Assembly: GCA_001765415.1 (NCBI GenBank) | Contig: CP017245.1 | Span: 62,001 to 126,000, forward strand | Reading direction: 5' to 3' | Origin: Candidatus Melainabacteria bacterium MEL.A1 | GTDB taxonomy: Bacteria > Cyanobacteriota > Vampirovibrionia > Gastranaerophilales > Gastranaerophilaceae | DNA: 64,000 nt | In this document: piece by piece, positions 32,092 through 49,073 of the stretch | Numbering within the stretch: the first letter of the stretch is position 1 | How the letters are laid out: each line of letters opens with the position of its first letter | Position numbers and translations under genes: made by a program | Notes under the pieces: model-generated | The model's input: only the letters and a program-made list of their open reading frames with translations | The model's database searches: none | What the model was told of the DNA's origin: nothing

Positions 32092-32127
32092 AACTACTTG
32101 AAAAACATCAAAAAATTTGTTAAAATA
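32092..32127 (+). repeat. 36-nt promoter block R-A, copy 1
   Basis: Matches 48233-48268 at 35 of 36 positions. It contains a complete promoter, TTGAAA (32098-32103)-N17-TAAAAT (32121-32126), with transcription expected near 32133, 27 nt before the ATG and upstream of the GAGAGG ribosome-binding site. It drives prepilin locus 1. Confidence 0.8.
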
Positions 32128-32159: not shown

Positions 32160-33337
32160 ATGAAAAAGAGATTGATGTCACAAGAGTTTGAAAAATTGAA
32201 AAAAGCTCTATGTGGCGGATGGAACGGCACGTTCCTCGGGGGGGGGGCAATAGTCTAAAACCCTCTCATAATCAAGATTTTAGTCTAATCGAAACTTTTA
32301 ATAATCTCGCCCTTTGGGGAGAGAAGAAATTTGTTAGTGAGCTAAAGCGAACTTATAAATTTCAGAGAGGGGTTTATTGTCATACTGAGGACAACAGTCC
32401 GAAGTATCGCATGGTTGGTAAAATTTATCAGTGTCTTACCAATGTTGATAAAAGATTGCGCAACAAGTGCGCAATGACAGATTATGTTCATAATGAACTT
32501 GTTTCAGTATCTTTTGGTTTGAACCCCTCTCCTGCCTTTCAGGCACCCTCTCCCCAAGTGGCGAGGGGAAAGATTAGAAGTATTGAAAACATGAAAGAAA
32601 ATATCTTTTCCAATATGGTCAACTCACTATTCACCACTCACCATTCACTTATTCATAACGATAAGGTCTTTTCACGTTTCACTTCTCACCATTTACTAAG
32701 AAAAACAGCTTTCACACTTGCCGAAGTTTTGATAACTCTTGGCATAATCGGTGTTGTTGCTGCGTTAACTTTACCTGCTTTGATTAATAATTACGAAAAA
32801 TCTGTTGTAGAAACTAGAATGCAAAAGTTTTATACAAATATTAATGCTGCATTAAAGTTGTCTATTGTAGAAAATGGAGATATGGTTGATTGGACATTTC
32901 CTCAAGATTATTATGATGCTGATGGCTCAGAGCAATTTTTTAATACGTATTTGAAAAATAATTTACAGTATCTTAAAACTGTTCCACGAGTTACGACAAG
33001 CTGGCCGACTAACGGTATAGAGGTTGATTTGAATGATGGTTCTGCTTTTGTTTTGTCTGATACTTGGATTACATACTACCCAAATGCTAATAAAAAACTA
33101 CGTAGTGGGGTGGATTCGTTTATATTTATAATTAATAAAAATGGAAATTCTGTTGTTCCGCATGGATATGACTTAAAATTAAATGAAAGTACTATAAAAC
33201 TAGTTGAAGATGTCAGTTATTCTTGTAATGGAAAGTCTCGTAAAGCTTTCAATAGGTCGTGTGCCGCCTATATTATGCAAAATGGATGGAAAATTCCTAA
33301 ATATTATCCTTGGGGTGATTTGAAAAAGGTTAAATAG
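32160..33337 (+). CDS. prepilin-like protein interrupted at a G10 tract (locus 1, off as read)
   Basis: From ATG 32160 (GAGAGG ahead) translation runs 32 codons, through G10 at 32238-32247, to a TAA at 32256. One extra G, or a -1 slip, joins it to the long downstream frame and gives 392 residues. The prepilin signature FTLAEVLITLGIIGVVAAL begins at residue 185, preceded by KTA as the likely cleavage site. The mature domain ends with two cysteine-containing segments and NGWKIPKYYPWGD. The 184-residue leader is mostly translated repeat DNA, including the R-C element. A downstream in-frame ATG at 32591 could bypass the tract and leave a 40-residue leader. Confidence 0.75.
32236..32270 (+). repeat. 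35-nt poly-G block R-B, copy 1 (G10 at 32238-32247)
   Basis: TC, then ten G, then CAATAGTCTAAAACC and CTCTCATA. It is identical over 35 nt to 48329-48363. In the full-length frame (G11) it encodes GGGGNSLKPSH. Long G runs are otherwise absent from this AT-rich DNA. Confidence 0.9.
32622..32700 (+). repeat. dispersed repeat R-C, copy 2
   Basis: ACTCACTATTCACCACTCAC followed by CATTCACTTATTCATAACGA and TTTCACGTTTCACTTCTCAC. It lies inside the prepilin leader, where it reads SLFTTHHSLIHNDKVFSRF in the pilin frame. Related copies lie at 13677-13746 and, inverted, at 47749-47812. Confidence 0.75.
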
Positions 33338-33364
33338 TAAAAATGGTGGTGAAAAATTTTTACT

Positions 33365-34177
33365 TTATTTATTCAATATTTCAAAAGCTGTTTCAACGAT
33401 ATTTTTTATATCAAGAGTTGCTTTATTTTCATTATGTGAAGATAGCCAGATAAGGTATTCTATGTTGCCGGATGGCCCTTTTATTGATGAAAAAGTTAGG
33501 TCGTTAATTGAGTAATTTAATTCTTTTGCACAATTGATGACGTTTTCTATAACCTCTTGATGAACCTTTTTATCTCTGACAACTCCGCCTTTTTCAACTT
33601 TTTCTTTCCCTGCTTCAAATTGGGGTTTTATTAATAAAATCATTTCATGAAAATCAGGCGATAACAAATTTTTTAAATTAGGCAAAACTTTTGTTAAAGA
33701 GATGAATGATAAATCACTTACTAGCAAATCTGCTATAGGCTCGTTTTCTGAATATATTTCTTCAAATGCGCAGTTTTTTAGGTTTGTTCTTTCAATTGTT
33801 TTAACTCTTTCATCAGAACGGATTTTCCAATCCAATTGCCCATAACCGACATCTGCCGCATAGACAAATTTCGCTCCGTTTTGCAATAAACAGTCTGTAA
33901 AACCTCCTGTTGAAGCTCCGGCATCAAGACAAATTCTTCCCTCTATTTTAACAGGGAAGGTATCTAAAGCTTTTTTTAATTTGAAACCGCCACGAGATAC
34001 AAAAGGCATTGATTTTACAACGATTTCGTATTCTTTAGTCGGATTAATTTGAAAGCCGGCTTTTGTGATGTATTCGTCGTTAATTTTTACGTGACCGGCT
34101 AAAATCGCAGCAGCAGCTTTGCTTTTTGTTTCAAAATAACCTAAATCAGTAAGGTATTTGTCTAATCTTTCTTTCAT
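33365..34177 (-). CDS. tlyA: TlyA-family rRNA 2'-O-methyltransferase
   Basis: 270 residues. The N-terminal S4 RNA-binding domain (LDKYLTDLGYFETKSKAAAA, then HVKIND, about 5-35) is followed by an FtsJ-type methyltransferase. The SAM site is CLDAGASTGGFTDCLL (about 80-95); VSDLSFISL (about 152-160) and LIKPQFEAGKEKVEKGG carry catalytic residues. Members methylate cytidines in 16S and/or 23S rRNA. The gene converges with prepilin locus 1 and diverges from the small gene at 34226. Confidence 0.94.
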   Translation of the reverse strand: MKERLDKYLTDLGYFETKSKAAAAILAGHVKINDEYITKAGFQINPTKEYEIVVKSMPFVSRGGFKLKKALDTFPVKIEGRICLDAGASTGGFTDCLLQNGAKFVYAADVGYGQLDWKIRSDERVKTIERTNLKNCAFEEIYSENEPIADLLVSDLSFISLTKVLPNLKNLLSPDFHEMILLIKPQFEAGKEKVEKGGVVRDKKVHQEVIENVINCAKELNYSINDLTFSSIKGPSGNIEYLIWLSSHNENKATLDIKNIVETAFEILNK

Positions 34178-34225
34178 ATTTTTAAAGTAGCATAAAATCG
34201 TTTTGGTTTGTAGTACAATTTTGAT

Positions 34226-34384
34226 ATGATTAAATCTGATATTATAAAAATTGAAAAAATTGATAATTTTGATAACAATTATGTTGAACGAGAATTAGCG
34301 AAAAATTTTGCTAATGTTATTCGCTGGGCGATTGTAGAAGTTTCTGAAAAAGATTTGACTGTTAGTATTTCTTACGAAATGTAA
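34226..34384 (+). CDS. small protein of unknown function (52 aa)
   Basis: A short frame (MIKSDIIKIEKIDNF... ending VSISYEM) with normal codon use. The -10-like TACAAT (34214-34219) lies exactly 6 nt before the ATG, the same spacing as the leaderless promoters elsewhere, but no good -35 is seen. No ribosome-binding site and no known family. It lies between the divergent tlyA and the G10-interrupted HExxH gene. Confidence 0.55.
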   Translation: MIKSDIIKIEKIDNFDNNYVERELAKNFANVIRWAIVEVSEKDLTVSISYEM

Positions 34385-34451
34385 CGATTAATGTTATTTA
34401 GTTAAAGTATTTTTATAAAATATCCGACATATACGTAGTAGGAGAATATTT

Positions 34452-36700
34452 ATGTCAGATTTAAGTGTACAACAACAAAAACAATTAAGTTTATATTTGA
34501 AGAAAAATCCTAAAATTTCTCGTGAAAAAGCGATTGTTTTGCTGTTCGGGGGGGGGGCAATGCGCCCACTAATAAAGGGTTTGCGGTAGAACATTCTTCC
34601 AAACAAACTCAATCTCATACAATTTATCTTCAATCTGGAAGAAAAGTTGTTTATACAAAATTAAAAGATGGGCGGATGGCTTGCAAGTATTATGGTGCAG
34701 ATGGAACACAACTTAAACCAGAATACTTTAAAAAAGTAGAAGGTAATATTTCAATTTCTTCTGATGGGACAAGCTACACACTCACAAAAAACGGTAAAAA
34801 AAGTAAGCCAATAAAAGCAAAAGATGCCAGACTCGGGGTAGTTGACCAAAACATTGTAAAATTAAACAATCAGGAAAAAAGGTTAAAAAAGACCAAAAAA
34901 GAGCAAGGTTTTATTGGCAAAGGCTGGGATTGGTTAAAAAATAAAACCGGAATAGGCGATAGTTCAGATAAAGCGCAAATGCAAATTAATGCGGAACGTG
35001 ATATGTTGAAACAATTACGTCAGCCGAATGCAAAAATTGACCAAAAACAATTCGAGAAAATAACAGGACAAAAATATACAAAAGCTAATCTTGAAAAATT
35101 TAAAAAAGGAGAATTTTCGCAAGCTAGTCAAAAAGTTGCAGGATATCAAGAAGGTCAAGAAATGGCAGTTGATGTTGTTACCGATGTTGCAGCAGGTGCA
35201 GCTTCTTTTACTATTTATACTCTTTCTATCGCAGCAGCTCCATTTACAGGTGGAGGAAGTATTGCATTAGGGGGTGCTTTGGCAGCCGGAACAGGTGCTT
35301 TGGTAAAAACAAGTGTAAAATATGCAGATGCAGTAAGTGGTGGTAGAAAATATACATTGAATGATACAAAAAAAGATGCTTCAACAGGTGCTGTTTCAGG
35401 TTTGTTAGCTCCTATAACTGCTGGAGCAGGAGGTGCGATTGGAAAAACAGTTGCAACCAAATTGGGTTTGCAAACCATAAAAACAGTTGGAAAAGAAATT
35501 GGAGAAGATGTTGTTGAAAATAGCTTCAAACAAACGTTGAAAACATCTTTAATGAGTCCCGGAGCATTCAAATATGTTGGAGAAGGGACCGGAAAGAAAA
35601 TTCTTGCCTATAGCTCAGAAGTTGTAACAGACGGAGCATTGAACGGCGGAATAGACAACGGGTTTAGGACAGCCGTGAACGGGGGTTCTCTTTTAGATGT
35701 TGCAAAAGCGTCAGGAGAAGGTGCTTTGTTCGCTCCTCTAGTTGGTTTAGGAATGAAAGGCACAGGGCTTGTTTTATCCAGAGGTATTGGCAAAAAATTC
35801 GTAACCCACGGAAAAGAAGTTATTGAAAATAAGCGAATACTGCTAAAACAAAAAATGGCGCAAGGGAATAAAGTTTTGCAAAACAGCAACACATCTATTC
35901 CGAAAGGGGCGCTAAGAGCTCCTTCATCAAAATTTGCAGAGACAGATGAAGCGTTTATAAATATTGTTCGCAATAATAAACAAGCGATTTTAGAATTGAA
36001 TAAAAAATCTGGTGACGATTTTATAAAAGGCGCATTTGCATTATGCAAAAAGGCTATGGGACTAGAAGATGCTCCAATTAAACTAAAAATAATTGGCAGT
36101 GGTTCAAATTATTCTTCTGTTGGCGACAATATGGGGAAAAGTGCAGGAATTGCCATAAACAGAAATTGGCAAAATGGAAACAAAGCAGAATTATTTGCGG
36201 CTATTTGTCACGAATTAAACCACCAATTTCAATATAAAGAAATGTACATAAATTCAACATTGAATGATAAACATTTGAATATGTCTAAAAATTTGACAGA
36301 TTGGATAGACAAGCATATTGAATTTCTTGATGGACATGAAAATTATTATGATAAGGCTGAGATTTATTCTGATAATTTCATAAACCATTATATAGAACCG
36401 GATGTTAATTTTGACGCTTACAGGCAACAACCGGTTGAGGCTGAAAGTATGAGAAGAGGAGAGTTAGTTCGAGATGCGTATAATCAAGTAATTCAAGACA
36501 ACCACACAAATATTAAATTAGACCCGTTAGAAAGACAAGCTGCTCAGCAAATAATTAATAATATTAAAAGGAAATATCCAAATGCTACAATCGAAGCACT
36601 TCAAGAGGTAGCAAATGATGCAATTGCAACAATGAGGCAACCCGAATTCTCTAATTACACAGTCGACAAGTTTGTTTCGTATTTTCTAAGTATGTATTAA
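34452..36700 (+). CDS. large Gly/Ala-rich HExxH protein interrupted at a G10 tract (off as read)
   Basis: From ATG 34452 (AGGAGA ahead) translation passes G10 at 34548-34557 and meets TAG at about codon 46. One extra G or a -1 slip joins the rest and gives 749 residues. The N-terminus is charged and helical. The middle (about 240-430 of the full protein) is rich in Gly/Ala hydrophobic helices (TIYTLSIAAAPFTGGGSIAL, GLLAPITAGAGGAIGKTV) like those in large secreted effectors. A zinc-protease-like CHELNHQF (HExxH) lies at about residue 582. A secreted protease or toxin is plausible. Without the first part, an internal ATG at 34676 would yield 674 residues. Confidence 0.75.
34546..34561 (+). repeat. 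TC-G10-CAAT tract in the HExxH gene (G10 at 34548-34557)
   Basis: Ten G with the same immediate flanks (TC before, CAAT after) as the two prepilin loci; similarity stops after CAAT. In the full-length frame (G11) it encodes GGGGN. Confidence 0.9.
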
Positions 36701-36806
36701 TGTTAATACACATTAGTTAATAATTTGATTTTAAAAGTTGTCTGATGTACACTTTTTATTAGTACATTGCCGGGTCGGAATTAAAAACCTTACCGGCTAA
36801 GTGTTC

Positions 36807-36878
36807 GTCATTCTGAGGGGGTGACAATCCCGAAGAATCTCATGTGTGGTGAGATCTTTCGCTAACGCTCAAGATGAC
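36807..36878. repeat. REP-like imperfect inverted repeat
   Basis: Outer arms GTCATTCTGAG / CTCAAGATGAC and inner arms CGAAGAATCTCA / TGAGATCTTTCG, each with two mismatches. It fills the space upstream of metK and is more GC-rich than its surroundings. It resembles the small dispersed palindromes found between genes in many bacteria. Confidence 0.7.
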
Positions 36879-36907
36879 AACCAAAAACAAATTAAGGAGA
36901 ATTTGAA

Positions 36908-38185
36908 ATGGCACCAAAAAACTTTTTATTTACTTCCGAATCAGTTACGGAAGGACACCCCGACAAAGTTTGCGATCAGATTTCTGATGCAATTTTAGAC
37001 GAGTTTTTAACAAAGTATCCGCAATCTCGTGTTGCTGCTGAAACTACTGTTACTACAGGTATGGCACTTGTTTGCGGTGAAATTACATCTGATTGTTATG
37101 TTGACATTCCTTCAGTTGTAAGAAACACTATTAAAAATATCGGTTATACAGAAAGTGAAGGCGGCGGATTTGATTTTAATACTTGCGCTGTTTTGACTAG
37201 TATTGATGAACAATCTTGCGATATTGCCGGCGGCGTAAACAAAGCTCTTGAATCTCGTTCTGACAATGCCGATACATCTGTTTCTGAAACAGAAGATATT
37301 GGAGCAGGTGATCAAGGTATTATGTTTGGGTACGCTTGTAATGAAACACCAGAACTTATGCCTTTACCTATCAGCTTGGCTCACAAGCTTTCATATAGAT
37401 TGGCTCAAGTTAGAAAACAAGGGATTTTATCATACCTTAGACCGGATGGAAAATCTCAAGTTACTGTTGAATATGTAGACGGAAAACCTTCAAGAATACA
37501 TACAGTATTGATTTCAACTCAACATGATGATGTAATTGATGGTATTTCTGATAATGCTCAAATTCAAGCTAAAATTAGAGAAGACATCAAAAAATACGTA
37601 ATTGATTATGTATTTGAAAACGAAGCGATTAAACTTGATGACGAAACAAAAATTCTTGTTAATCCATCAGGTCGTTTTGTAGTTGGTGGACCTCAAGGTG
37701 ATGCTGGTTTGACAGGTCGTAAGATTATTGTTGATACTTACGGTGGTTATTCTCGTCACGGTGGTGGAGCTTTCTCTGGAAAAGATCCAACAAAAGTTGA
37801 CAGATCCGCAGCTTACGCATCACGTTATGTTGCTAAAAACATTGTTGCAGCAGGCTTAGCAGAAAAATGTGAAATTGAATTGGCATACGCTATTGGTGTT
37901 GCAGAGCCTATTTCAATTATGGTTGATACTTTTGGAACAGGTAAAATTTCTGATGACGAAATTTCTGAACTTGTTTCTAAAAACTTTGACCTTAGACCGG
38001 CTGCAATTATCAAAAACTTCGATTTGAGAAACTTGCCTGCTAAAAACGGTGGCAAATTCTATCAATTATTAGCAGCTTACGGTCATATGGGCAGAACTGA
38101 TATTGATGTTCCTTGGGAACATACAGATAAAGCCGATGCTTTGAAATCTCAAGCTTGCTCTTGCGGATGTTGTTCTTGCAAGTAA
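36908..38185 (+). CDS. metK: S-adenosylmethionine synthetase
   Basis: 425 residues. [20 protein letters not shown] (about 9-28) binds [15 protein letters not shown] (about 137-148) is the family signature, and [19 protein letters not shown] is the phosphate loop. It makes SAM from methionine and ATP. The product extends past the usual end with a cysteine-rich tail, [12 protein letters not shown], holding five cysteines in the last ten residues. AAGGAG lies ahead of the ATG. No SAM riboswitch was recognised upstream. Confidence 0.97.
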
Positions 38186-38203
38186 GTTGATAAATAAATG
38201 ATT

Positions 38204-38243
38204 AAAAATAGAGTTGGAAAATCTTTCTGACTCTATTTTTTTT
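38204..38243 (+). terminator. rho-independent terminator of metK
   Basis: Stem AAAAATAGAGT / ACTCTATTTTT with a 15-nt loop, followed by more T. Confidence 0.8.
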
Positions 38244-38300
38244 GTTGGACTAGAAAGCCCAATCTACTTAAACAACTGTGGTATATAGAGCTATTTTAAC

Positions 38301-39437
38301 TTAATTTTTTTCTAAATTTGAAAAATCAACCTTGTTTTCATTGCTTTTTTTAATCAAATAAGCTGCAACTATTGCCGTAATTGGTACGCAGAAAAGAATT
38401 GCAATACTTCCTATTAATGCTGACAAAATTTCAGTTGCAACTTGGTTTAGATTGAAAAATTTGTTCATATCAATGTTGTTTGATAATAAAACTAATGGTA
38501 AAGAACTTCCCAAATATACTAAAATCAAAGTGTTTGACATTGTCCCGATTATATCTCTACCGACATTCATACCGGATTTGAAAAGTTGTTTTACGGTCAA
38601 ATTTTTATCTGTTTCAAAAATCTCATTAACTGTACTTGCAATAGATACTGCAGTATCCATCAATGCTCCCAATGCTGCTATAATCATTGAAGCCGCCAAA
38701 ATTCCTGTAAAACTTAAATCCGGTCTTGCGGTGTACAAAAACATGTTTTCTTCGCCTGCAAAGCCAGTTAGATGTGCGAAATATATTGCCAACATTGAAA
38801 AACCGCCGGCAAATACCAAACTTATTGAAGTGCCGATGATTGCAGCCGAGCTTTTTGAATTAAATCCCCCAACAAGATAGATTGTTACTACTGTAGATAA
38901 AATCCCGACTAAAACCGCAGATGCTATCGGGCAAAAACCGTGCAATATCATTGGCATTAGCATAAAAAATATTAGACACATTGTTGAAATTATTGAAACA
39001 ATGCTTGTTGCTCCTTTTTTCTTTCCGATAAAGAGTAATAACGCAAAAAATATAGCTGTAAAAATATAAATAGAATTATCTCTTTGAATATCTGCAATAA
39101 ATATATCGACATCATCAGGGGTTGAAACAGTGTCATTTAAGGGTTCTAAGTGGAGAACAACTTTGTCGCCTTTGGATAAATTTATGTCGTAGGCAGGGTT
39201 TCCAGTTAACATATTGTCTATAAGGCGTTCTGTGTTTTTAAATTTACCTGTTAACACTCTTACTGTAACAACTTGTTTGGTCGTTTCTTCACCTTGATTT
39301 AGTCCTTGAGCATCTTCATATTTTATATTTTCTACAATTCCTGTTTCAGAAGGAAGAACTGTTTTGGAGTTGTCATCTGCTTGTGCCGGTAAAATTAAAC
39401 CAAAGAATAAAATAAAAATTGCTAATATTTTTTTCAT
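38301..39437 (-). CDS. YibE/F-like membrane protein
   Basis: 378 residues. A signal peptide (ILAIFILFFGLILPAQA) leads an extracytoplasmic domain of about 100 residues (VVTVRVLTGKFKNTERLIDN). Seven or eight membrane helices follow, with GALMDTAVSIASTVNEIFE and RDIIGTMSNTLILVYLGSSL as the conserved blocks of the YibE/F family. The family function is uncertain. The gene starts 9 nt after the ruvB stop, with AGGA ahead of the ATG, so it is probably in the ruvB operon. Confidence 0.88.
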   Translation of the reverse strand: MKKILAIFILFFGLILPAQADDNSKTVLPSETGIVENIKYEDAQGLNQGEETTKQVVTVRVLTGKFKNTERLIDNMLTGNPAYDINLSKGDKVVLHLEPLNDTVSTPDDVDIFIADIQRDNSIYIFTAIFFALLLFIGKKKGATSIVSIISTMCLIFFMLMPMILHGFCPIASAVLVGILSTVVTIYLVGGFNSKSSAAIIGTSISLVFAGGFSMLAIYFAHLTGFAGEENMFLYTARPDLSFTGILAASMIIAALGALMDTAVSIASTVNEIFETDKNLTVKQLFKSGMNVGRDIIGTMSNTLILVYLGSSLPLVLLSNNIDMNKFFNLNQVATEILSALIGSIAILFCVPITAIVAAYLIKKSNENKVDFSNLEKN

Positions 39438-39446
39438 AATTGTCCT

Positions 39447-40523
39447 TTAGAACAAACTTTTTTGTTCGTTAATATTTCTGTTTTTATACCCCAGATGTCT
39501 GTAAGTTGCAGGTGAAACTTTTCTGCCTCGTGGTGTGCGCTGAAGTAAACCTGCTTGTAGTAAAAATGGTTCGCAAACATCTTCTATTGTTCTAACGTCT
39601 TCACCAATAGCTGCGGCGATAGTTTCAATCCCGACTGGTCCTCCGTCGTATTTTTCAATAATCAATTTTAATAAACTTCTGTCGGTATTATCAAGTCCGT
39701 AGTTGTCGATTTTTAGAATATCTAAAGATTTATTTGCAACATCTTCTGTGATTTTTCCGTCGTGTTTCACAAGAGCGTAATCTGAAACTCTTTTAACCAG
39801 TCTGTTTGCAATACGAGGAGTTCCTCTTGACCGCTTGGCGATAGCGTGTGCGCCTTCTTCTGTGATTTCAATGTTTAAAATTCCTGCGGTTCTTTTTATA
39901 ACTTCAGAAAGCTCGTCTTCTGTATAAAATTCAAGTCTGTGAATAATTCCAAACCTATCTCTTAATGGACCTGAAAGTTCGCCGGCTTTAGTTGTTGCGC
40001 CAATTAAAGTGAATTTAGGTAGTGGAACTCGTAGTGTTTTGACTGTTTGACTTTTTCCGGTCGTCATATCCAAAAAGAAATCTTCCATTGCGGGATAAAG
40101 AATTTCTTCTGCTACTTTGTTAAGTCTGTGGATTTCATCAATAAACAGGATTTCTCCTCCCTTTAATGACATCAAAATTCCGATAATATCTCTAGGTCTT
40201 TCAAGAGCCGGAGCAGAAGTTATTTTTATATCAACTCCCATTTGTTCTGCAATTACTCCTGCAAGAGTTGTTTTTCCCAATCCAGGTGGACCATAAAAAA
40301 GTAGGTGATCGAGAGGAAGTTCTCTTTTTTTTGCGGCAGCAATTGATATTTTTAATGTTTCTTTTAAAGCTGATTGACCAATATATGTATCGAAAGTTTT
40401 TGGTCTAATACAGTTTTCAAAATTTTTGTCATTATCAAGAACTTCTGATTTGATTACCGAAGTTTTTTTCTTTTCAGCAATCGGTTTACTATCAAAATCA
40501 TTGTCATCCGCTATAATACTCAT
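39447..40523 (-). CDS. ruvB: Holliday junction branch-migration helicase RuvB
   Basis: A 358-residue AAA+ motor. Walker [13 protein letters not shown] (about 80-91), Walker [11 protein letters not shown], sensor 1 [12 protein letters not shown] and the C-terminal winged helix ([17 protein letters not shown]) are all present. An extra N-terminal stretch of about 40 residues, rich in Asp and Lys, precedes the core. RuvB drives branch migration with RuvA, which is not in this window. Confidence 0.97.
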
Positions 40524-40646
40524 TTATATCCCTCACAAGTAACTTTATACTCAAAATAGTGTATAAGTTTCTGTTCATTGAATTTCCTCTATATTTATGT
40601 TACCATAAAATTAACGTATAGAACAATTTATTAAGAAGGAGAAGTA

Positions 40647-41816
40647 ATGAAAGTATCAGAACGTTTGGAACAGATTCCTCCATATTTGTTTGCTGAAATA
40701 GATAGAAAAATTGCAGAAGCAAAGGCAAAAGGTATTGATATCATAAGTTTGGGGATAGGAGATCCTGACAAACCGACACTACAACCTGTTGTTGATGCTA
40801 TGCACAAAGCAATTGACAATCCTAAAAACCATGATTATCCACCTTATAATGGGACAGAAGGATTTAGGAAAGGTGCTTGCGAATGGATGAAAAAACGTTT
40901 TGGTGTAGAATTAAATCCTGATACTGAAATGCTTGCAAATATCGGTTCAAAAGAGGCTATTGCGCATGTGTTCTTTGCGTATGTCGATAAAGGCGATTAT
41001 ACGTTAGTTCCTGATCCAGGTTATCCGGTTTATCACAATGCTACAATCTTTGCAGGAGGAACTCCATATGAAATGCCTTTATTAGAAGAAAACGGATATC
41101 TTCCAGATTTTGATAAAATACCTGCTGATGTTGCAAAAAAGGCAAAATTGATGTTTTTGAATTATCCGAACAATCCGACTAGTGCTACTGCTGATTTGGA
41201 TTTTTGGAAAAAAGCAGTTGATTTTTGTAAAAAGTATGACATTTTGTTGTGTTCAGATATGGCTTATTCAGAAATGACGTTTGATGGTTATAAAGCTCCA
41301 TCAGTGCTTCAAGTTGAAGGTGCGAAAGATGTTGCAATTGAATTTTATTCTCATTCAAAATCGTACAATATGACCGGATGGAGAGTTGGTTTTGTTTGCG
41401 GTAATGCAGATGCTGTTAAAGCTTTAGGAACTATTAAAAATAATATTGACTCTGGTACATTTAAAGCTATTCAAGAGGCAGCAACTGCAGCATTTACTGT
41501 TGATGAAAAATATATTAGTGATTTGAATAAAATGTATCAAGAACGTAGAGATGCCGCAGAAGAAGGTTTTAGAGAATTGGGTTGGGATATTAAGCCGTCT
41601 AAAGCAACTTTCTACTTATGGTTACCAGTTCCACATGGAATGACTTCAGAAGAATTTGTTACCGCAATGCTTGAAAAAGCTCACGTCGTTGTTCCGCCGG
41701 GAAATGGTTACGGTAAATATGGGGAAGGTTATTTCCGTGTTGCTTTGACTAAAGATGTTGAAACTATTAAAGAATGTATTAAAAGAATGAAGGATGCAGG
41801 AATTAGATATAATTAA
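40647..41816 (+). CDS. dapL: LL-diaminopimelate aminotransferase
   Basis: A 389-residue fold-type I PLP enzyme. SLGIGDPDKPTLQPVVDAM near the N-terminus and the PLP-lysine motif SHSKSYNMTGWRVGF (about 234-248) match LL-DAP aminotransferases. It converts tetrahydrodipicolinate directly to LL-diaminopimelate for cell wall and lysine. This route is shared with Cyanobacteria, plants and Chlamydia, in line with the proposed lineage. AGAAGGAGA lies ahead of the ATG. Confidence 0.92.
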   Translation: MKVSERLEQIPPYLFAEIDRKIAEAKAKGIDIISLGIGDPDKPTLQPVVDAMHKAIDNPKNHDYPPYNGTEGFRKGACEWMKKRFGVELNPDTEMLANIGSKEAIAHVFFAYVDKGDYTLVPDPGYPVYHNATIFAGGTPYEMPLLEENGYLPDFDKIPADVAKKAKLMFLNYPNNPTSATADLDFWKKAVDFCKKYDILLCSDMAYSEMTFDGYKAPSVLQVEGAKDVAIEFYSHSKSYNMTGWRVGFVCGNADAVKALGTIKNNIDSGTFKAIQEAATAAFTVDEKYISDLNKMYQERRDAAEEGFRELGWDIKPSKATFYLWLPVPHGMTSEEFVTAMLEKAHVVVPPGNGYGKYGEGYFRVALTKDVETIKECIKRMKDAGIRYN

Positions 41817-41841
41817 GTTAAACAAGATAAACTTAACATTT

Positions 41842-41870
41842 TTGTCTGATTGATTGTAGAATGGTATAAT
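41842..41870 (+). promoter_or_regulatory. predicted leaderless promoter of the zinc-ribbon/TPR protein
   Basis: TTGTCT (41842-41847), 17-nt spacer, TATAAT (41865-41870), 6 nt to the ATG at 41877. No ribosome-binding site is present. Confidence 0.65.
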
Positions 41871-41876
41871 TTTTCT

Positions 41877-44800
41877 ATGGAATGTCCAAAGTGCGGATTA
41901 GAAATTGATGATAAGGCAATGGTTTGCCCGAACTGCAAGAAGGTGTTGAAACTAGCATGTCCTATCTGTAAGACTATAAATACGACAAACACTTGCAGAA
42001 AATGTGGATATACTATTATAACAAAATGCCATAATTGTGGAAAGGTAAACCAAACAGCTGTAAAAAAATGTAAAAAATGCGGATTTGATACTGAAAAAAG
42101 CGTAATTATGAATGAATCAAATGCCGATGATTTTGCTATTTTGACAATTGATTTTCCTAATATGGATGAGATGAAAAATTGTTTAGGTTCTGCAAAACTT
42201 TTGAATAAATTCAAAATTAACCTTGACAAAATTATTCTTGACTACACAAAATCGATTGGACTTCGTCGTCAATTAATTGGTAAAACATATGTAATTCGTT
42301 GTGATAAGGATTATACTTTTAACAGTTCGGCTGCTACTGCCGTGAAAACTGCGATAGAGTTACTAAATCTAATTACTGCAATGAACTGTAAATTAACTCG
42401 TAAAAAAAATGCGACTGTTCGTTGCAATATGTTTATCTTGAAACGAAATATTGAAGATGATCCGAACAATCTTGATTCTGGTTATAATATTAGTCTTTTA
42501 AATCAAAATGCTAGTAAAAAAACGGATAAAATCCTCAATACTTTTCAGGTTTTGACAGAAGATAATGTCGCAGATGCAATCAGTGGAGATTACAAATTGT
42601 CACCGTTAAATTCAGTTGTTGTTAATGGTGAAATGTTAATGTTTTACGAAGTTGATTTGAGGGAATTTGTAAAAGTTGAATATCCTGAAGAAGATGAAGA
42701 TCAAGAAATTGAAGTTCCAAATTTTGTTCAAAATATGTTGATTGAACAAGATAAAATGGACGGTGAAGCTCTAAATAATTTGGATTCACCGGGTGATCCT
42801 GATGCAATTTACGATATTGAAACGATTAATTTTGATGAAATAAATTGTGAATTTATTAGGACTGAAAATATTGATGTTCTGTTCTATATAATGAACAAAT
42901 TCCAATCTATTCCAAAAGGAATTGTTGCTATTAAAACCGCAGAAATGTATAAACCATATACATTGAAAGTTTTGAATGCGGCAGGAGAAACAGGAAAATT
43001 TAACAATATTATTTCATTGACTTGTTACGACGAAATGAAATATTCTCCATATTCATTTTTTAGAGATTTGGTTTCTGCGATTTTTGAATATACCGTTTCA
43101 CAAAAACTGTTTTTTGAAAATGATTTTTCAATGTTTGCATCAGTTGATCCTGACGGATTGATTAGAGATTTGATTACATTAAAAGAAAGGGATGGACAAA
43201 ATACAGAAGACACACGATTTGTTTATTTTGATATTTTCTTAACTCTATTGCAAATTATTCCGAAAACATTGATATTTATTGAAGATTTTGAAAAAATTGA
43301 TTCAAGTTCTTATGATGTTTTGAAATATTTGTTTGAGGCTTTTGAACAATTAGATATAAGTTTCTTGATTTCTTACAACAAAGATTTTTCTTTGCATAAA
43401 GACTGTCATTTCTTGTTGAGCAAACCTTATTATACAGAAATAACTTTAAAACCGACATCTTTTGAAAAATTGATTGAGGAAAATAAAATTTATTATAGAA
43501 ATATTTTGAACAATTTCTATTTCCAAAGAGTTGCGAAATATGCTTGCGGAAGTAGTTTGTTTATTGATATAGCAATTCAGTATTTGATAGAGTCTGGAGT
43601 TTATGCTGCTGACGATGATAGTATTGAGATGATTAACCCTAAAACAATTATTATTCCGTCAAGTTTGGATAAATTGGTTGCTCGTAGGTTGAATTTGTTG
43701 CAAGATGATGAAGCTGCGATGAAATTTCTTACTTCAATTGTCCTTTTAGGGACAAGAATTGATATGGGAACTGTTGAAAGTTTAGGATATGAAAATTTGA
43801 ATGAAATTATTGAAAAACTTTCTGGAATGGGATTTTTATATCAGTATAACAATTGTATTTATTTCCCTAATTACAATTTGTTGAGGGATAATCTTTTGAC
43901 AACTATAAGTAAAATTTATTTGGAAGAAGTTGCAAAAGATTTGTTTGCAAAAGTGTTTAATGACGATATGCCAAGTCCTGTAAAAGCTTATTTATATGGA
44001 CTTTTGCAAGATACAGAAAATGAACGTCATCAATGGGAACAATTGGCTGAAATTGATTTGTCTTTAGGTGACTTTAGTGCTTATTTGAACTGTACTAACA
44101 AAATTTTGGAGCTTCTTGATAAAAATGATGATCCTGAAAAGATGGAAGAAATTGCAGAATACAAAAAAAGTTTGTATGAAAAAATATCAAATAATTTGTA
44201 TGAGTATGTCCCTGACAAAACTGCGGATATTGCAGAAATGACTTTGAAGAATTTGGAAAAAACTTCTGATGTTGATAAAATTATTCTTCTTTGCAATAAG
44301 ATGATTAATGGTGCGTTGATGGCTGGAAATTACAATCACGCATTGGAATTAACTCATAAGGTGTTGTCATTATTACCTCCATCATCATTAAATCCTGCAG
44401 ATGAAAATTTTAATAGTTACTTTTTCTTGATGTCTGTTATTCATATTCAAATTTTGTTCAATATTGGTGCTTTGATGGATTGTTTGGATATTGGTTATAA
44501 AGTTTTGAATGTTGTAAATAATCAAACAATGCCGACTTTAAAACCAGATTATATGTCAGATGATGATTTTCAATCTTTAATTGTTGATTCTGCCGGATAT
44601 GTAGCGTTAGCCAATGTTTTATTATTGGGCGGAAATGTAGAAGAATTTTTGAGAATTTTGAGAGCAGATTTGGATTGTGTTCCGCAATCTTATGATTTGT
44701 TTATTGCTTTAGAAAAACTTATTCATGGTGTTGAAATCACCGAATTTAATCCTGAAATTTCTGATAATGATAGGTTTGGAAGCGTTATTTATAATATAAT

Positions 44801-45380
44801 CAGTGCGTTTGTTTTGTTAAATGGAGATTACACTCAATTCGCAGAAAATATTTATAGAGCGAAAGTCTTTGCAAAAAATAATCGTTTACATCAGTTAGAA
44901 TTGTTCTGTGACTTGATGATTGGGTATTCTTATATGGAATTAAATTCTTTCCAAAAGGCCGATTCTATTATTTATAAAATTATTAAGGAAACAAACAGAA
45001 ATGGTATGACAACGTTACTGTATGTTACGTGGTATGTTATGAGTGAATTGCACTTGAAACAAAACAAATATGATGTTGCTTTTGGTATTGTTAATAATTC
45101 TCTTATTCAATTAGAAAAAAATAACACAACTAGCCCATATCTATTGATGTTGTTCAAGTATAACATGTTTAAAATAATGATGTTAAAAAAACAAAATGAT
45201 AAAGCTGAAATTTGTATTGGGCATGCAAGATATATTGCTGAAAAATATGGTATAAATTTTGAATTTGATACAGATGAAAGTCACTATATTGCAGTAGAAG
45301 ACGACGAAGTTTCAGCAGAAGATATTGAAGAGATTAATAGCGAGGCAAATCAGAGTGATATAGAAGGAGAGGCAGAATGA
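41877..45380 (+). CDS. zinc-ribbon, degenerate cyclase/ATPase and TPR protein
   Basis: 1167 residues from the ATG placed by the promoter. Three zinc ribbons (CPKC...CPNC, CPIC...CRKC, CHNC...CKKC) fill the first 70 residues. Residues about 85-180 (FAILTIDFPNMDEMKNCLG onward) sit where class III nucleotide cyclase domains sit in similar proteins, but catalytic residues are not recognisable. An ATPase-like module follows with a Walker-B-like TLIFIEDFEKID (about 465-476); the Walker A position reads NAAGETGKFNN and is degenerate. The rest is TPR-like helices. It looks like a signalling scaffold derived from cyclase-STAND-TPR regulators. It overlaps glgA by 4 nt. Confidence 0.7.
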   Translation: MECPKCGLEIDDKAMVCPNCKKVLKLACPICKTINTTNTCRKCGYTIITKCHNCGKVNQTAVKKCKKCGFDTEKSVIMNESNADDFAILTIDFPNMDEMKNCLGSAKLLNKFKINLDKIILDYTKSIGLRRQLIGKTYVIRCDKDYTFNSSAATAVKTAIELLNLITAMNCKLTRKKNATVRCNMFILKRNIEDDPNNLDSGYNISLLNQNASKKTDKILNTFQVLTEDNVADAISGDYKLSPLNSVVVNGEMLMFYEVDLREFVKVEYPEEDEDQEIEVPNFVQNMLIEQDKMDGEALNNLDSPGDPDAIYDIETINFDEINCEFIRTENIDVLFYIMNKFQSIPKGIVAIKTAEMYKPYTLKVLNAAGETGKFNNIISLTCYDEMKYSPYSFFRDLVSAIFEYTVSQKLFFENDFSMFASVDPDGLIRDLITLKERDGQNTEDTRFVYFDIFLTLLQIIPKTLIFIEDFEKIDSSSYDVLKYLFEAFEQLDISFLISYNKDFSLHKDCHFLLSKPYYTEITLKPTSFEKLIEENKIYYRNILNNFYFQRVAKYACGSSLFIDIAIQYLIESGVYAADDDSIEMINPKTIIIPSSLDKLVARRLNLLQDDEAAMKFLTSIVLLGTRIDMGTVESLGYENLNEIIEKLSGMGFLYQYNNCIYFPNYNLLRDNLLTTISKIYLEEVAKDLFAKVFNDDMPSPVKAYLYGLLQDTENERHQWEQLAEIDLSLGDFSAYLNCTNKILELLDKNDDPEKMEEIAEYKKSLYEKISNNLYEYVPDKTADIAEMTLKNLEKTSDVDKIILLCNKMINGALMAGNYNHALELTHKVLSLLPPSSLNPADENFNSYFFLMSVIHIQILFNIGALMDCLDIGYKVLNVVNNQTMPTLKPDYMSDDDFQSLIVDSAGYVALANVLLLGGNVEEFLRILRADLDCVPQSYDLFIALEKLIHGVEITEFNPEISDNDRFGSVIYNIISAFVLLNGDYTQFAENIYRAKVFAKNNRLHQLELFCDLMIGYSYMELNSFQKADSIIYKIIKETNRNGMTTLLYVTWYVMSELHLKQNKYDVAFGIVNNSLIQLEKNNTTSPYLLMLFKYNMFKIMMLKKQNDKAEICIGHARYIAEKYGINFEFDTDESHYIAVEDDEVSAEDIEEINSEANQSDIEGEAE

Positions 45381-46822
45381 AAATTTTATTTGCAGCGGCG
45401 GAAGTAGCACCTTTTTCAAAAGCTGGTGGATTAGCAGATGTAGTCGGAAGTTTGCCTAAACATCTTGAGAAAGATGCAGAAATCGCTATTTTTACTCCAT
45501 TGCACGGTCTTATTGATACTAATAAATGGGGAATAAAAGAACTTGAAAATTCTGAAATGTGGCTAACTTTTGGCGGTATGGGGCATAAATTTAGATTATT
45601 TATGTGTCAGTTGCCAGGTACTAAAATTAATGTATTTTTTGTGCATAATGATTGGTATTTCTCTTGTTTTAAAGAAGTTTATCCAAAATGGTTAGACACA
45701 AAATATGAACATGAAAGATATATCGCATTTTCTTTGGCTACAATGGAATATGCAAAATTGCTGAATTTTAAGGCTGATGTAATTCATGCTAATGATTGGC
45801 ATACGGCTATGATCCCTGTTTATTTGCATAGCAACTACAGATTTGATGAATTTTGGAAAGATACAAAGTGCGTTTTTGAAATCCATAATCTTGCTTATCA
45901 AGGTATTTGGTTTGAAGATGTGCTTGATTTTGCCAATATGAGAAAAGATATTGTGTATAACGAACACGGTGTTGAACACTTTGGTAGAGTAAATTGGATG
46001 AAAGGCGCAATCAATTATTCTGATAAGGTTATTGCGGTTTCTCCAACTTATTCAAGAGAGATTTTGACCGGTGAATATGGTGAAGGTATGGATTATACTT
46101 TGCGTATGAACCAAAATAAACTTGTTGGTATTCTTAACGGAATTGATTATGATGTTTTCAATCCTAAAAAAGATAAAACTATTGTGAAAACATACGATGT
46201 TAAGTCTTTGAAAAACAAGGAAGAAAACAAGAAAAAAGTTTGTGAAGAATTAGGTTTGGAATACAATCCTGATAAACCTATGTTTGCAATGGTATCAAGA
46301 CTTGTTGGACAAAAAGGCATTGATTTAATCAGACAATGTCAGGATGAGTTGAAAAATATTAATGCAGATTTTGTTTTCTTGGGCAGTGGTGAAAAAGATT
46401 ATGAAAATTTGTTAATTTGGCTTTCTAACAATTCGTCAAATATACGTGCTTATATTGGTTATAGAGCAGATTTGGCTAACCAAATATATGCAGGAAGTGA
46501 TTTTTATTTGATGCCATCAAAATTTGAACCTTGTGGATTGAGCCAATTGATTGCAATGCGTTATGGATCTTTACCTGTAGTTAGAGCAACCGGTGGATTA
46601 GAGGATACTGTAACTGGTTATCCGCTGGATAATTCAAATGGATTTAAGTTCTGGGGTTATTCAGGTGTGAATATGATGGAAGCTATTCGTTGTGCATTAG
46701 GTGTTTATCAGGACAAGTACACATTTAATGCGATGCGTAAATCTGCTATGGAAGCTGATTTTTCATGGAAGAAAAGTTCAACCGAATATTTGAAATTGTA
46801 TAAAGAATTAGCAAGTGTTTAA
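45377..46822 (+). CDS. glgA: glycogen synthase (ADP-glucose)
   Basis: A 481-residue GT5 enzyme. KAGGLADVVGSLPK (about 15-28) binds ADP-glucose, VIHANDWHTAMIPVYL and EIHNLAYQG are in the N-terminal domain, and FEPCGLSQLIAM (about 390) in the C-terminal domain. It elongates alpha-1,4-glucan, which implies glycogen storage. Its ATG overlaps the stop of the preceding signalling protein (ATGA), with AAGGAGAGG ahead, so the two are co-translated; that protein may influence glycogen metabolism. Confidence 0.95.
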   Translation: MKILFAAAEVAPFSKAGGLADVVGSLPKHLEKDAEIAIFTPLHGLIDTNKWGIKELENSEMWLTFGGMGHKFRLFMCQLPGTKINVFFVHNDWYFSCFKEVYPKWLDTKYEHERYIAFSLATMEYAKLLNFKADVIHANDWHTAMIPVYLHSNYRFDEFWKDTKCVFEIHNLAYQGIWFEDVLDFANMRKDIVYNEHGVEHFGRVNWMKGAINYSDKVIAVSPTYSREILTGEYGEGMDYTLRMNQNKLVGILNGIDYDVFNPKKDKTIVKTYDVKSLKNKEENKKKVCEELGLEYNPDKPMFAMVSRLVGQKGIDLIRQCQDELKNINADFVFLGSGEKDYENLLIWLSNNSSNIRAYIGYRADLANQIYAGSDFYLMPSKFEPCGLSQLIAMRYGSLPVVRATGGLEDTVTGYPLDNSNGFKFWGYSGVNMMEAIRCALGVYQDKYTFNAMRKSAMEADFSWKKSSTEYLKLYKELASV

Positions 46823-46833
46823 TTTTAAATAAT

Positions 46834-46862
46834 TTGACATGTTAAAAAAAATGGCGCAAAAT
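46834..46862 (+). promoter_or_regulatory. predicted leaderless promoter of the EamA transporter
   Basis: Consensus TTGACA (46834-46839), 17-nt spacer, CAAAAT (46857-46862), 6 nt to the ATG at 46869. Confidence 0.55.
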
Positions 46863-46868
46863 TGAGTT

Positions 46869-47750
46869 ATGCAAGAGAGTAAATTAGATTATTTAAAATT
46901 ACACATATCCGTTTTGTTAGCTGGTTTTACCGGATTGTTGGCAAAACTGATTTCGTTAAATGAAGTTATGATTGTTTTTTATCGAATACTTTTTGCATTT
47001 GCTTTTTTTGCAATTATGCTTGTTTTCATGAAGAAAAAGCCTGTAGAAAAAATAAAAGATGCTTTAAAAATCATTGGTTTGGGTGCATTATTAACAATCC
47101 ATTTGATATTCTTTTTCGGCAGTATGAAGTATGCAACCCTAGCAATAGGTGTAGTTTGTTATTCTTTGGTTGGTTTTTTTACAGTTCTTTTTGAACCTAT
47201 AATTTTAAAAGCAAAATTTTCATTTGTAGAATTGATGTATAGTTTGGTTGCGGTATTAGGAATTTGGTTGATATTTAATTTTGATACAAGTTATAGATTT
47301 GGCATTTTACTTGGTGTAATTTCGGCGGCATTATTTGCTCTTTATACTTTATATAACAAGACAATTCTGGTTGGCAAATCTTCACGGTCAATGTTATTTT
47401 ATGAATTGTTGGGTGGTGCGTTGTTTATGACGTTATTTTTGCCGATTTATATTCCAATTTCTCATACAACGCAGATTTTACCTATTGGAATTGATTGGTT
47501 GTGGATAATTTTGTTGGCATTTTTCTGTACCGTATTATTATATTTGTTATATATTGACGCTTTGAAGAAATTGTCTGCGTTTACGGTTAGTTTAGCGGGA
47601 AATTTAGAACCTGTTTACGGAATTTTATTAGCGGTAATTTTTTTAGGAGAGGCAAAAGATTTTACATTATCTTTTTATGTTGGGATGATTTTAATTTTCG
47701 CTTCAGTTTTTTCTCAATCGTTGATAAAAGGGCGAAAGGTTACATTTTAG
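46869..47750 (+). CDS. EamA-family (DMT) transporter
   Basis: A 293-residue membrane protein with ten predicted helices in two EamA halves. The first half ends around GIWLIFNF and the second contains LSAFTVSLAGNLEPVYGILLAVIFLGE, a typical EamA block. It probably exports or imports a small metabolite; the substrate is unknown. It stands alone behind glgA with its own promoter. Confidence 0.88.
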   Translation: MQESKLDYLKLHISVLLAGFTGLLAKLISLNEVMIVFYRILFAFAFFAIMLVFMKKKPVEKIKDALKIIGLGALLTIHLIFFFGSMKYATLAIGVVCYSLVGFFTVLFEPIILKAKFSFVELMYSLVAVLGIWLIFNFDTSYRFGILLGVISAALFALYTLYNKTILVGKSSRSMLFYELLGGALFMTLFLPIYIPISHTTQILPIGIDWLWIILLAFFCTVLLYLLYIDALKKLSAFTVSLAGNLEPVYGILLAVIFLGEAKDFTLSFYVGMILIFASVFSQSLIKGRKVTF

Positions 47751-47812
47751 TGAGAAGTGAAACGTGAAACGTGAAAAGTCCGTATCGGGATGAATAAGTG
47801 AATGGTGAGTAG
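47749..47812 (-). repeat. dispersed repeat R-C, copy 3 (inverted)
   Basis: Read on the minus strand: TACTCACCATTCACTTATTC, a short variable part, then TTTTCACGTTTCACGTTTCAC and TTCTCAC. It starts at the stop codon of the EamA gene. The minus frame reads STHHSLIHPDTDFSRFTFHF, close to the peptide read from copy 2. Confidence 0.7.
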
Positions 47813-48232
47813 ACCTTATCAAGGAAATTGTTTTTCTCCCTGATGAGACTCTGCCGAACAAAAGGTGACTAAATGTCACGTTTTGTGAGAGGTAATTTAG
47901 GTGGGTGCTATCCCGTAAGGGAAACATTTAACCTTCCTTGCAAAGGAAGGGGGACCGCTTGCGGTGGAAGGATTGTTTTTTTGTCTTGCGCAGACGGCGG
48001 GAACTTTTTGTGTAAAAAGTTCCACAAAACCACCCACACGCTCCATTCACTAATAACTAGTAAGTTCAACTAAAAAACAGTCAAACTCGCTACGCTCAAA
48101 CAATGCCTGTTTTTAACCATCTGTGTAAACATTTGTTCCTACATCATACATTTGTGTAAAGCTCTTTGTTGTTTGTTTCACTAACAAGTTATTGTTCATT
48201 TCGCTATCGTGGGATTATTTTCTTCTTCTTAA
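47813..48232. repeat. intergenic repeat-rich region upstream of prepilin locus 2
   Basis: No gene is supported. It holds the perfect hairpins CCTTCCTT-GCA-AAGGAAGG (47932-47950) and GGAACTTTTT-GTGT-AAAAAGTTCC (48000-48022), and a looser inverted pair AAAACAGTC/GCCTGTTTT around 48075-48115. Short GC-rich patches (GGACCGCTTGCGGTGG) contrast with the AT-rich surroundings. It looks like stacked dispersed palindromes. Confidence 0.6.
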
Positions 48233-48268
48233 AACTACTTGAAAAACTTCAAAAAATTTGTTAAAATA
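48233..48268 (+). repeat. 36-nt promoter block R-A, copy 2
   Basis: Matches 32092-32127 at 35 of 36 positions. Contains TTGAAA (48239-48244)-N17-TAAAAT (48262-48267). Transcription is expected near 48274, 30 nt before ATG 48304. Confidence 0.8.
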
Positions 48269-48303
48269 ATAATATATTTATGAAAGAAAGAGAGGATTTT
48301 AGT

Positions 48304-49073
48304 ATGAAATTCAAAGAAAATAAGCTCGTCGGGGGGGGGGCAATAGTCTAAAACCCTCTCATAGTCATGATGTACACCTGTTTTTAAGACGCTTAGCCGC
48401 CTTCACTCTTGCGGAGGTTTTAATCACTCTCGGCATTATTGGAGTAGTTGCGGCATTAACTCTGCCAACTCTTATTGAAAACCATAACAAAAGAGTTGTT
48501 GAAACGAGGTTGCAAAAATTCTATTCTGCAATGAACCAAGCTATAAAAATGGCTGAATTGGATTACGGCGACCGTGATACGTGGTTTGAAGATAATACGG
48601 CATATTCTGGTAAACAAAAAATTTGGGTTGATAAATATTTAGTCCCTTATTTAAAAGTCGCTAAAACTGATAAATTAAAGACAGGTGGTGGTGAGGTGTA
48701 TGCGATTTATTTCGCAGATGGCTCTGCGGTTTCTATGGTTCCGACTAACGGTAGAGATTGGTGGTTTTTCTCAAGTAATCCTGAAAAATGTATTGCAGAT
48801 AATGATTATTCTTATCGTAAATTCATGGGAAAATGTGCTTTTGCCTTCTATTATAATCCGACAAGAGATGAAGATGGTAAAATAAATAATGCAGGTTGGA
48901 ATTTCAACCCGTTTGGTTATGGTTGTAATGGGTATTCTGAAAATTATCTTAAAAATGATCCAACATATGGTTGTTATTCAAGTTCTTCTTGGCACGGACA
49001 TTGTACGGCATTAATTCAATACAACAATTGGAAATTTCCTAAAGATTATCCGTTCAAAGTTCGTTACAGATAA
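48304..49073 (+). CDS. prepilin-like protein interrupted at a G10 tract (locus 2, off as read)
   Basis: From ATG 48304 (AGAGAGG ahead; another in-frame ATG lies at 48280) translation passes G10 at 48331-48340 and meets TAA at 48349. One extra G or a -1 slip restores a 256-residue protein. A 33-residue leader ending RLAA precedes FTLAEVLITLGIIGVVAAL, so prepilin peptidase should cut before the F. The mature part has six or more cysteines in its second half and ends CTALIQYNNWKFPKDYPF. No alternative ATG follows the tract before the signature, so expression of the pilin depends on tract length or slippage. Confidence 0.8.
48329..48363 (+). repeat. 35-nt poly-G block R-B, copy 2 (G10 at 48331-48340)
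   Basis: Identical over 35 nt to 32236-32270, including the G10 run, and diverging immediately after. In the full-length frame (G11) it encodes GGGGNSLKPSH. Confidence 0.9.

Follow-up and report, generated by a model that had tools for sequence, protein, structure and literature searches.

Poly-G tracts at the 5' ends of two prepilin-like genes and an HExxH gene as probable phase-variation switches in a Melainabacteria genome

Phase variation by slippage is itself well known. In Neisseria pilC, for instance, poly-G phase variation acts on a pilus gene through a G run at the end of the signal peptide. Campylobacter and Neisseria have poly-G contingency loci (see the review PMC11868660), in which a run of about ten Gs stands near the 5' end of genes for surface structures, and the length of the run moves the reading frame. 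The accessible text of Orsi et al. (2010, PMC2831843) describes homopolymeric tracts at the 5' end as a general off switch with reversible loss of frame, and that of PMC3048395 reports predicted G-run phase variation in another gut bacterium, Akkermansia muciniphila. Here we describe three tracts of ten Gs (G10) in a 64,000-nucleotide (nt) stretch of Candidatus Melainabacteria bacterium MEL.A1 (contig CP017245.1, positions 62,001 to 126,000; hereafter the window). As in the described loci, each lies close to the 5' end of a gene: two encode prepilin-like proteins (genes 1 and 3) and one encodes an HExxH protein (gene 2). The three tracts are very probably simple-sequence contingency loci, at which G-tract slippage would cause translational phase variation.

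The tracts are located at 32238-32247, 34548-34557 and 48331-48340, each flanked by TC on the 5' side and CAAT on the 3' side, as an earlier sequence-only reading of this DNA had reported. That reading had also called long G runs otherwise absent, and indeed the window contains no other G or C run of 7 or more, the next longest being G6 and C5. For this window with 33% G plus C (GC), an order-1 Markov model predicts ~0.002 runs of 10 or more Gs on this strand. The tracts are 78, 96 and 27 nt from the ATG codons at 32160, 34452 and 48304, respectively, and these starts, which the sequence-only reading had called good, have Shine-Dalgarno (SD) sites that form anti-SD duplexes of -6.5 to -7.3 kcal/mol, compared with -6.4 kcal/mol for the 5% tail of random 17-mers. 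As read, the frames from these starts terminate at 32258, 34589 and 48351, and the long downstream frames end at 33337, 36700 and 49073. The claim that all three frames stop soon after the tract thus holds for the SD-bearing starts and fails for gene 1, where a 375-residue open reading frame (ORF) from ATG 32210 reads through G10 as it stands, with no SD site (-0.9 kcal/mol). The lengths proposed for the reopened frames, 392, 749 and 256 residues, agree with the coordinates. The features, all on the forward strand, are as follows.

32092-32127, forward: upstream block, copy 1, matching AACTACTTGAAAAACWTCAAAAAATTTG and TCAAAAAATTTGTTAAAATA
32160-32258, forward: native 5' frame of gene 1 as read, 32 residues, SD site (-6.5 kcal/mol)
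32210-33337, forward: downstream frame of gene 1, open through G10, DUF6613 prepilin-like; alternative ATG 32210 without SD site
32238-32247, forward: G10 tract 1
32248-32270, forward: leader segment, the same in genes 1 and 3, copy 1
34452-34589, forward: native 5' frame of gene 2 as read, SD site (-7.3 kcal/mol)
34547-36700, forward: downstream frame of gene 2, 717 residues from within the tract, HExxH protein, no family above cut-off
34548-34557, forward: G10 tract 2
48233-48268, forward: upstream block, copy 2, matching AACTACTTGAAAAACWTCAAAAAATTTG and TCAAAAAATTTGTTAAAATA
48304-48351, forward: native 5' frame of gene 3 as read, SD site (-7.1 kcal/mol)
48330-49073, forward: downstream frame of gene 3, 247 residues from within the tract, DUF6613 prepilin-like
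48331-48340, forward: G10 tract 3
48341-48363, forward: leader segment, the same in genes 1 and 3, copy 2

In the mechanism that we propose, slipped-strand mispairing at replication would alter the number of Gs, and the altered number would decide whether the start codon and the ribosome site share a frame with the remainder of the gene. The outcome would be heritable and reversible on/off expression. What the sequences show is the tracts themselves, their position after SD-bearing starts, the native frames that are closed at G10, and the differing frames of near-identical natural copies of gene 2 and of pilin leaders. That slippage is the cause, that the change can be reversed in a single clone and that the off state lacks the protein are steps that we infer. 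The off state of gene 1 could be leaky, as the downstream frame offers further start codons.

The relatives of gene 2 carry most of the evidence. A search with the downstream frame as it stands found 453 relatives, and the best 120, all at least 91% identical, were classified on the window's own DNA; one of them (P0194) is the window's own protein. Among these 120, 119 match one or another of the three reading frames that precede the tract in the window's DNA, and one (P0171) is unclassified. The native class (32 of 120) has the N-terminus MSDLS..VLLF followed by glycines, and its members read as G11 (27), G8 (2), G14 (1) or a changed flank (2). Members of this class have 748 to 752 residues, in line with the length proposed for the reopened gene 2. 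The second class (57 of 120) follows the KKRLFCC frame from GTG 34522 into the glycines and reads as G9 (46), G12 (10) or G15 (1). The third class (30 of 120) begins at ATG 34676, like the window's protein, and by elimination has G10 or G13. Overall, G8 is the shortest and G15 the longest tract deduced, and one sequence type contains both G14 and G15. Counted by what they show of the tract itself, 89 of the best 120 display it after an upstream start, 30 start 3' of it and are uninformative, and 1 begins with MGGGN. The results that the sequence-only reading had named as refuting phase variation, among them homologues that keep the frame and lack the tract, did not appear in the relatives covered: no tract-free native start occurs among the best 120 of the 453 gene 2 relatives. 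Tract-free pilins with short leaders do exist at ~45-63% identity.

The state of the tract differs even where the rest of the protein does not. Relatives whose downstream proteins are identical form 13 sets; the tract state varies within 12 of these and the frame class within 10. The database may merge copies that are identical in state as well, which favors mixed sets, and hence one row per distinct sequence was used for the tree. On a FastTree tree of 101 distinct sequences, 31-36 state changes were counted over 20 draws, compared with 37-51 after shuffling (25 shuffles per draw), and in all 20 draws the observed count was below every shuffle of its own draw. Judged from these proteins, the frame state of gene 2 appears to change often and yet to be partly inherited. 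In summary, the three repeats are far longer than chance and lie within a coding frame or immediately ahead of one, and the repeat length differs between close relatives so as to move the frame, as read from proteins rather than DNA; this is the pattern of a contingency locus. The phase variation suggested by the sequence-only reading is thereby supported through the tract-length differences of gene 2, the three frame classes of the leaders described below and the partial inheritance of state.

The pilin leaders, too, occur in three frames. The leader set comprises 43 proteins, 42 retrieved with residues 1 to 40 of P0002 as the query plus P0076. Nineteen are native-type, of which 11 resemble the window's gene 3 and 8 have other 5' ends, so that their native status is assumed; 18 are in the second frame, 5 in the third and 1 is unclear. 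Second-frame leaders begin with MWRMERHVP or MERHVP and third-frame leaders with MADGTARSS, and the MERHVP and MADGTARSS N-termini are what the window's gene 1 DNA encodes in its two remaining frames, apart from 1 extra codon in some of them. A wider search for DUF6613 proteins found 7741 relatives, and 119 of the best 120 have a recognizable motif. Gly-Gly-Gly is present in the leader of 28 of the 119, at residue 17 or earlier in 25 of the 28 even though leaders span 14 to 194 residues, and in the mature part of 11 of the 119, where the mature part holds ~3 times as many residues. Because the tract is absent from the short leaders of relatives with an identity of roughly 45-63%, it looks like an addition to the pilin rather than a part of it, unless these short-leader starts are choices of the gene caller. 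For the mature domain of gene 1, no close relative was found among the 155 pilin-search proteins compared, the closest being 39% identical; therefore, the population evidence for gene 1 is limited to its leader. Directly before tract 1, at 32221-32235, there is a perfect inverted repeat, GGAACG-GCA-CGTTCC, which is predicted to fold and whose coding in the other frames (MERHVP, ADGTARSS) recurs in many relatives.

Several points weigh against phase variation or limit its evidence. The tract lengths of the gene 2 relatives are deduced from peptides on the assumption that they have the window's flanks, in addition to the third class being assigned by elimination. Ranking by score favors proteins whose sequence extends across the tract, which under-counts the third class and inflates the native share. 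Errors of the polymerase chain reaction or of assembly in G runs may widen the spread of lengths. Among the 23 leader relatives with the MERHVP/MADGTARSS 5' module, none shows the native frame, where clustering at 90% could hide members. SD strength is also an imperfect guide: of 10 ordinary genes scored at their listed ATG, 5 reach -7.3 kcal/mol or better and 5 are no better than -2.7 kcal/mol. With 5 of these 10 genes lacking a strong SD site, our confidence in phase variation is slightly reduced; it remains high.

Three other explanations, all of them weaker than phase variation, were considered. In the first, which we regard as unlikely, the tract picks between alternative N-termini with different leader peptides rather than between on and off, as some 5' modules start in two or three frames. 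The window does contain starts in other frames before the tract, ATG 32210 and GTG 32212 in gene 1 and GTG 34522 in gene 2, gene callers use those frames in relatives, and a strong SD site is missing from the 5 ordinary genes mentioned above as well. However, these other-frame starts score only -0.3 to -0.9 kcal/mol, that is, they have no SD sites, in contrast to the -6.5 to -7.3 kcal/mol of the native starts. Gene 3 does not fit this explanation either, since at G10 no ATG, GTG or TTG was found 5' of its tract in the downstream frame, nor any start in the frames other than the native one.

The second explanation is that sequencing or assembly errors in G runs produce both the closed frames and the differences among relatives. 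G runs are error-prone in sequencing, and a difference in state between proteins that are otherwise identical downstream is what such errors would give. We nevertheless consider this quite improbable. The long runs are true outliers in a window of this GC content and all three fall just after starts; the deduced lengths spread from G8 to G15, up to the G14 and G15 of a single sequence type. The partial inheritance of state argues against random sequencing error, although rows from one study could share errors. Finally, programmed frameshifting or transcriptional slippage, which would yield the full protein from a closed frame with no genetic switching, is very improbable as the sole explanation: long runs can be slippery and all five tracts read from DNA (the three in the window and two in distant loci, L001 and L002, described below) are out of frame with the nearest SD-bearing or upstream ATG, but a fixed signal would hold a fixed length whereas the relatives cover all three frames, 32 of the 119 classified relatives are natively open (a share inflated by the ranking), and the RNA structure predicted at the tracts is ordinary (z -0.8 to -1.6). 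Either process fits poorly on its own with the range of lengths and could add to phase variation.

Tracts 1 and 3 are followed by 23 nt that are exactly identical and are preceded by a common 36-nt upstream block with 1 difference, while the pilin parts of the two genes share only 38% identity; AACTACTTGAAAAACWTCAAAAAATTTG and TCAAAAAATTTGTTAAAATA of this block match only at the two pilin genes in the window (up to 3 mismatches). This block is likely the promoter region of the pilin genes. Tract 2 has the 16-nt core TC-G10-CAAT in common with them and no obvious longer flank. Near-identical mature pilins with different leaders were found in three pairs (P0129/P0145, 100%; P0056/P0085, 99.6%; P0097/P0098, 99.1%), and the mature domain of gene 3 is 98.7% identical to that of P0001, which has a gene 1 type 5' end with an extra FTLAEGATHVAHW segment. 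These pairs suggest that leaders are exchanged among pilin genes by recombination. We tentatively extend this to a portable phase-variable leader cassette, consisting of the promoter block, the start, the G tract and a leader piece, which might recombine among pilin genes while its TC-Gn-CAAT core reaches unrelated genes; this extension is somewhat doubtful. If it is true, each pilin would be diversified in two ways, by which leader it carries and by its frame state. In the leaders of P0001, P0002, P0003 and P0085, we also noticed that the real prepilin motif is immediately preceded by an incomplete second copy (AFTLAEGATHVAHWNNSRKIA; AFILAE in P0003), which looks as if the end of the motif had been duplicated.

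More distant loci were sought in two sequence collections. A degenerate DNA pattern for the pilin motif matched two records in viral_contigs, L001 and L002, and a pilin profile scan of the same collection gave 9 pattern matches, of which 2 were confirmed, namely the same two. L001 has a C10 tract and L002 a G9 tract, 28 and 39 nt, respectively, after an ATG whose frame is closed. The flanks of both tracts differ from TC...CAAT, which indicates that this flank is not general. The L001 tract, at 5799-5808, shows poly-C in place of poly-G at the same position of a distant pilin gene. Other scans were negative: the pattern of G8 followed by CAATAGTCTAAAACC had 0 matches in genome_contigs and 0 in viral_contigs, a scan of genome_contigs based on the gene 3 protein gave 19 pattern matches with 0 confirmed, and a piece of the gene 1 5' module and a looser tract pattern each had 0 matches in viral_contigs. 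No relatives of gene 2 were found in viral_contigs and none of gene 3 in phages and plasmids.

The sequence-only reading had identified two prepilins and one HExxH protein. Genes 1 and 3 match DUF6613 (PF20318) with 69.5 and 51.6 bits against a curated cut-off of 24.3, and their pilin parts are 38% identical. Both contain the prepilin N-terminal motif FTLAEVLITLGIIG and the hydrophobic helix by which a type IV pilin or pseudopilin is recognized. TIGR02532 scores 17.6 bits for gene 1 and 16.0 for gene 3 (cut-off 16.3), and gene 1 stays under the cut-off for Pfam N_methyl (17.1 vs 21.2). A profile of 41 sequences matches 5 type IV pilin sequences in the PDB over the N-terminal helix (E 7e-6 to 6e-3). 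The structure predicted for gene 3, with a predicted local distance difference test (pLDDT) score of 90, combines a long N-terminal helix with a strand domain; whole-fold matches to this model are weak and tied with unrelated entries, and Foldseek gave no significant match. In the pilins, the tract is in the leader, 5' of the prepilin motif, and prepilin peptidase would presumably cut at the motif, downstream of the tract. The gene 2 protein carries HELNH. It has no Pfam or NCBIfam family above cut-off and only PDB sequence matches with E of at least 0.14, and its structure prediction is poor (pLDDT 45.6).

In addition to these features, inverted sequences of the form CTCGCCC..GGGGAGAG, resembling repetitive extragenic palindromes (REPs), occur at 32306-32323 and 32548-32565 inside the translated leader of gene 1, and the distant pilin L002 has a sequence that looks similar by eye in its own leader, at about 203-235. 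Several long DUF6613 leaders resemble translated repeats. Elsewhere in the window, an ORF of 1176 residues at 41850-45380 has only an N-terminal zinc ribbon recognized by Pfam.

A relative of gene 2 with 97% identity is named Clostridium sp. CAG:715, and NCBI places it in Clostridia. Genes for RND and TolC-type efflux proteins and for the hydrogenase maturase HydG are present in the window, and the RND and TolC genes suggest an outer membrane rather than Clostridia; we favor a placement in Gastranaerophilales. HydG and type IV pilus genes have been reported in Melainabacteria of the termite gut (PMC5877343, accessible part), which fits the assignment of the window to Melainabacteria without proving it. 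In the literature searched, largely without subscription papers, we found no report of phase variation for Gastranaerophilales or Melainabacteria and no paper on DUF6613. Melainabacteria and phase variation occurred together only in a flagellin paper, in whose accessible part the terms are used separately, and 'phase vari' does not occur in the accessible parts of the Melainabacteria papers PMC4040986, PMC5877343 and PMC4451040. If phase variation is correct, these data would be population-level evidence of frame switching in a probably mostly uncultured gut lineage, the switching genes being pilus-like proteins and one uncharacterized HExxH protein. The switch states could then be read from existing metagenomes, so that selection in hosts would be measurable without culture. 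As a caution, gene callers assign shifting starts to such genes.

These loci differ from the described systems in several respects. In Neisseria pilC, the G run is at the end of the signal peptide, while the tracts of genes 1 and 3 belong to the leader of a pilin-like protein and precede its prepilin motif. Compared with the Campylobacter and Neisseria loci in general, they are in a different lineage, the G-tract leader is common to many pilin genes and the TC-Gn-CAAT core is also present in an unrelated gene. Orsi et al. (2010, PMC2831843), in the accessible text, stress poly-A and poly-T, whereas the tracts described here are poly-G or poly-C in AT-rich DNA. In A. muciniphila, the predicted switches concern capsule genes and were proposed from repeats in one genome (PMC3048395, accessible part), whereas here length variants are deduced among natural copies.

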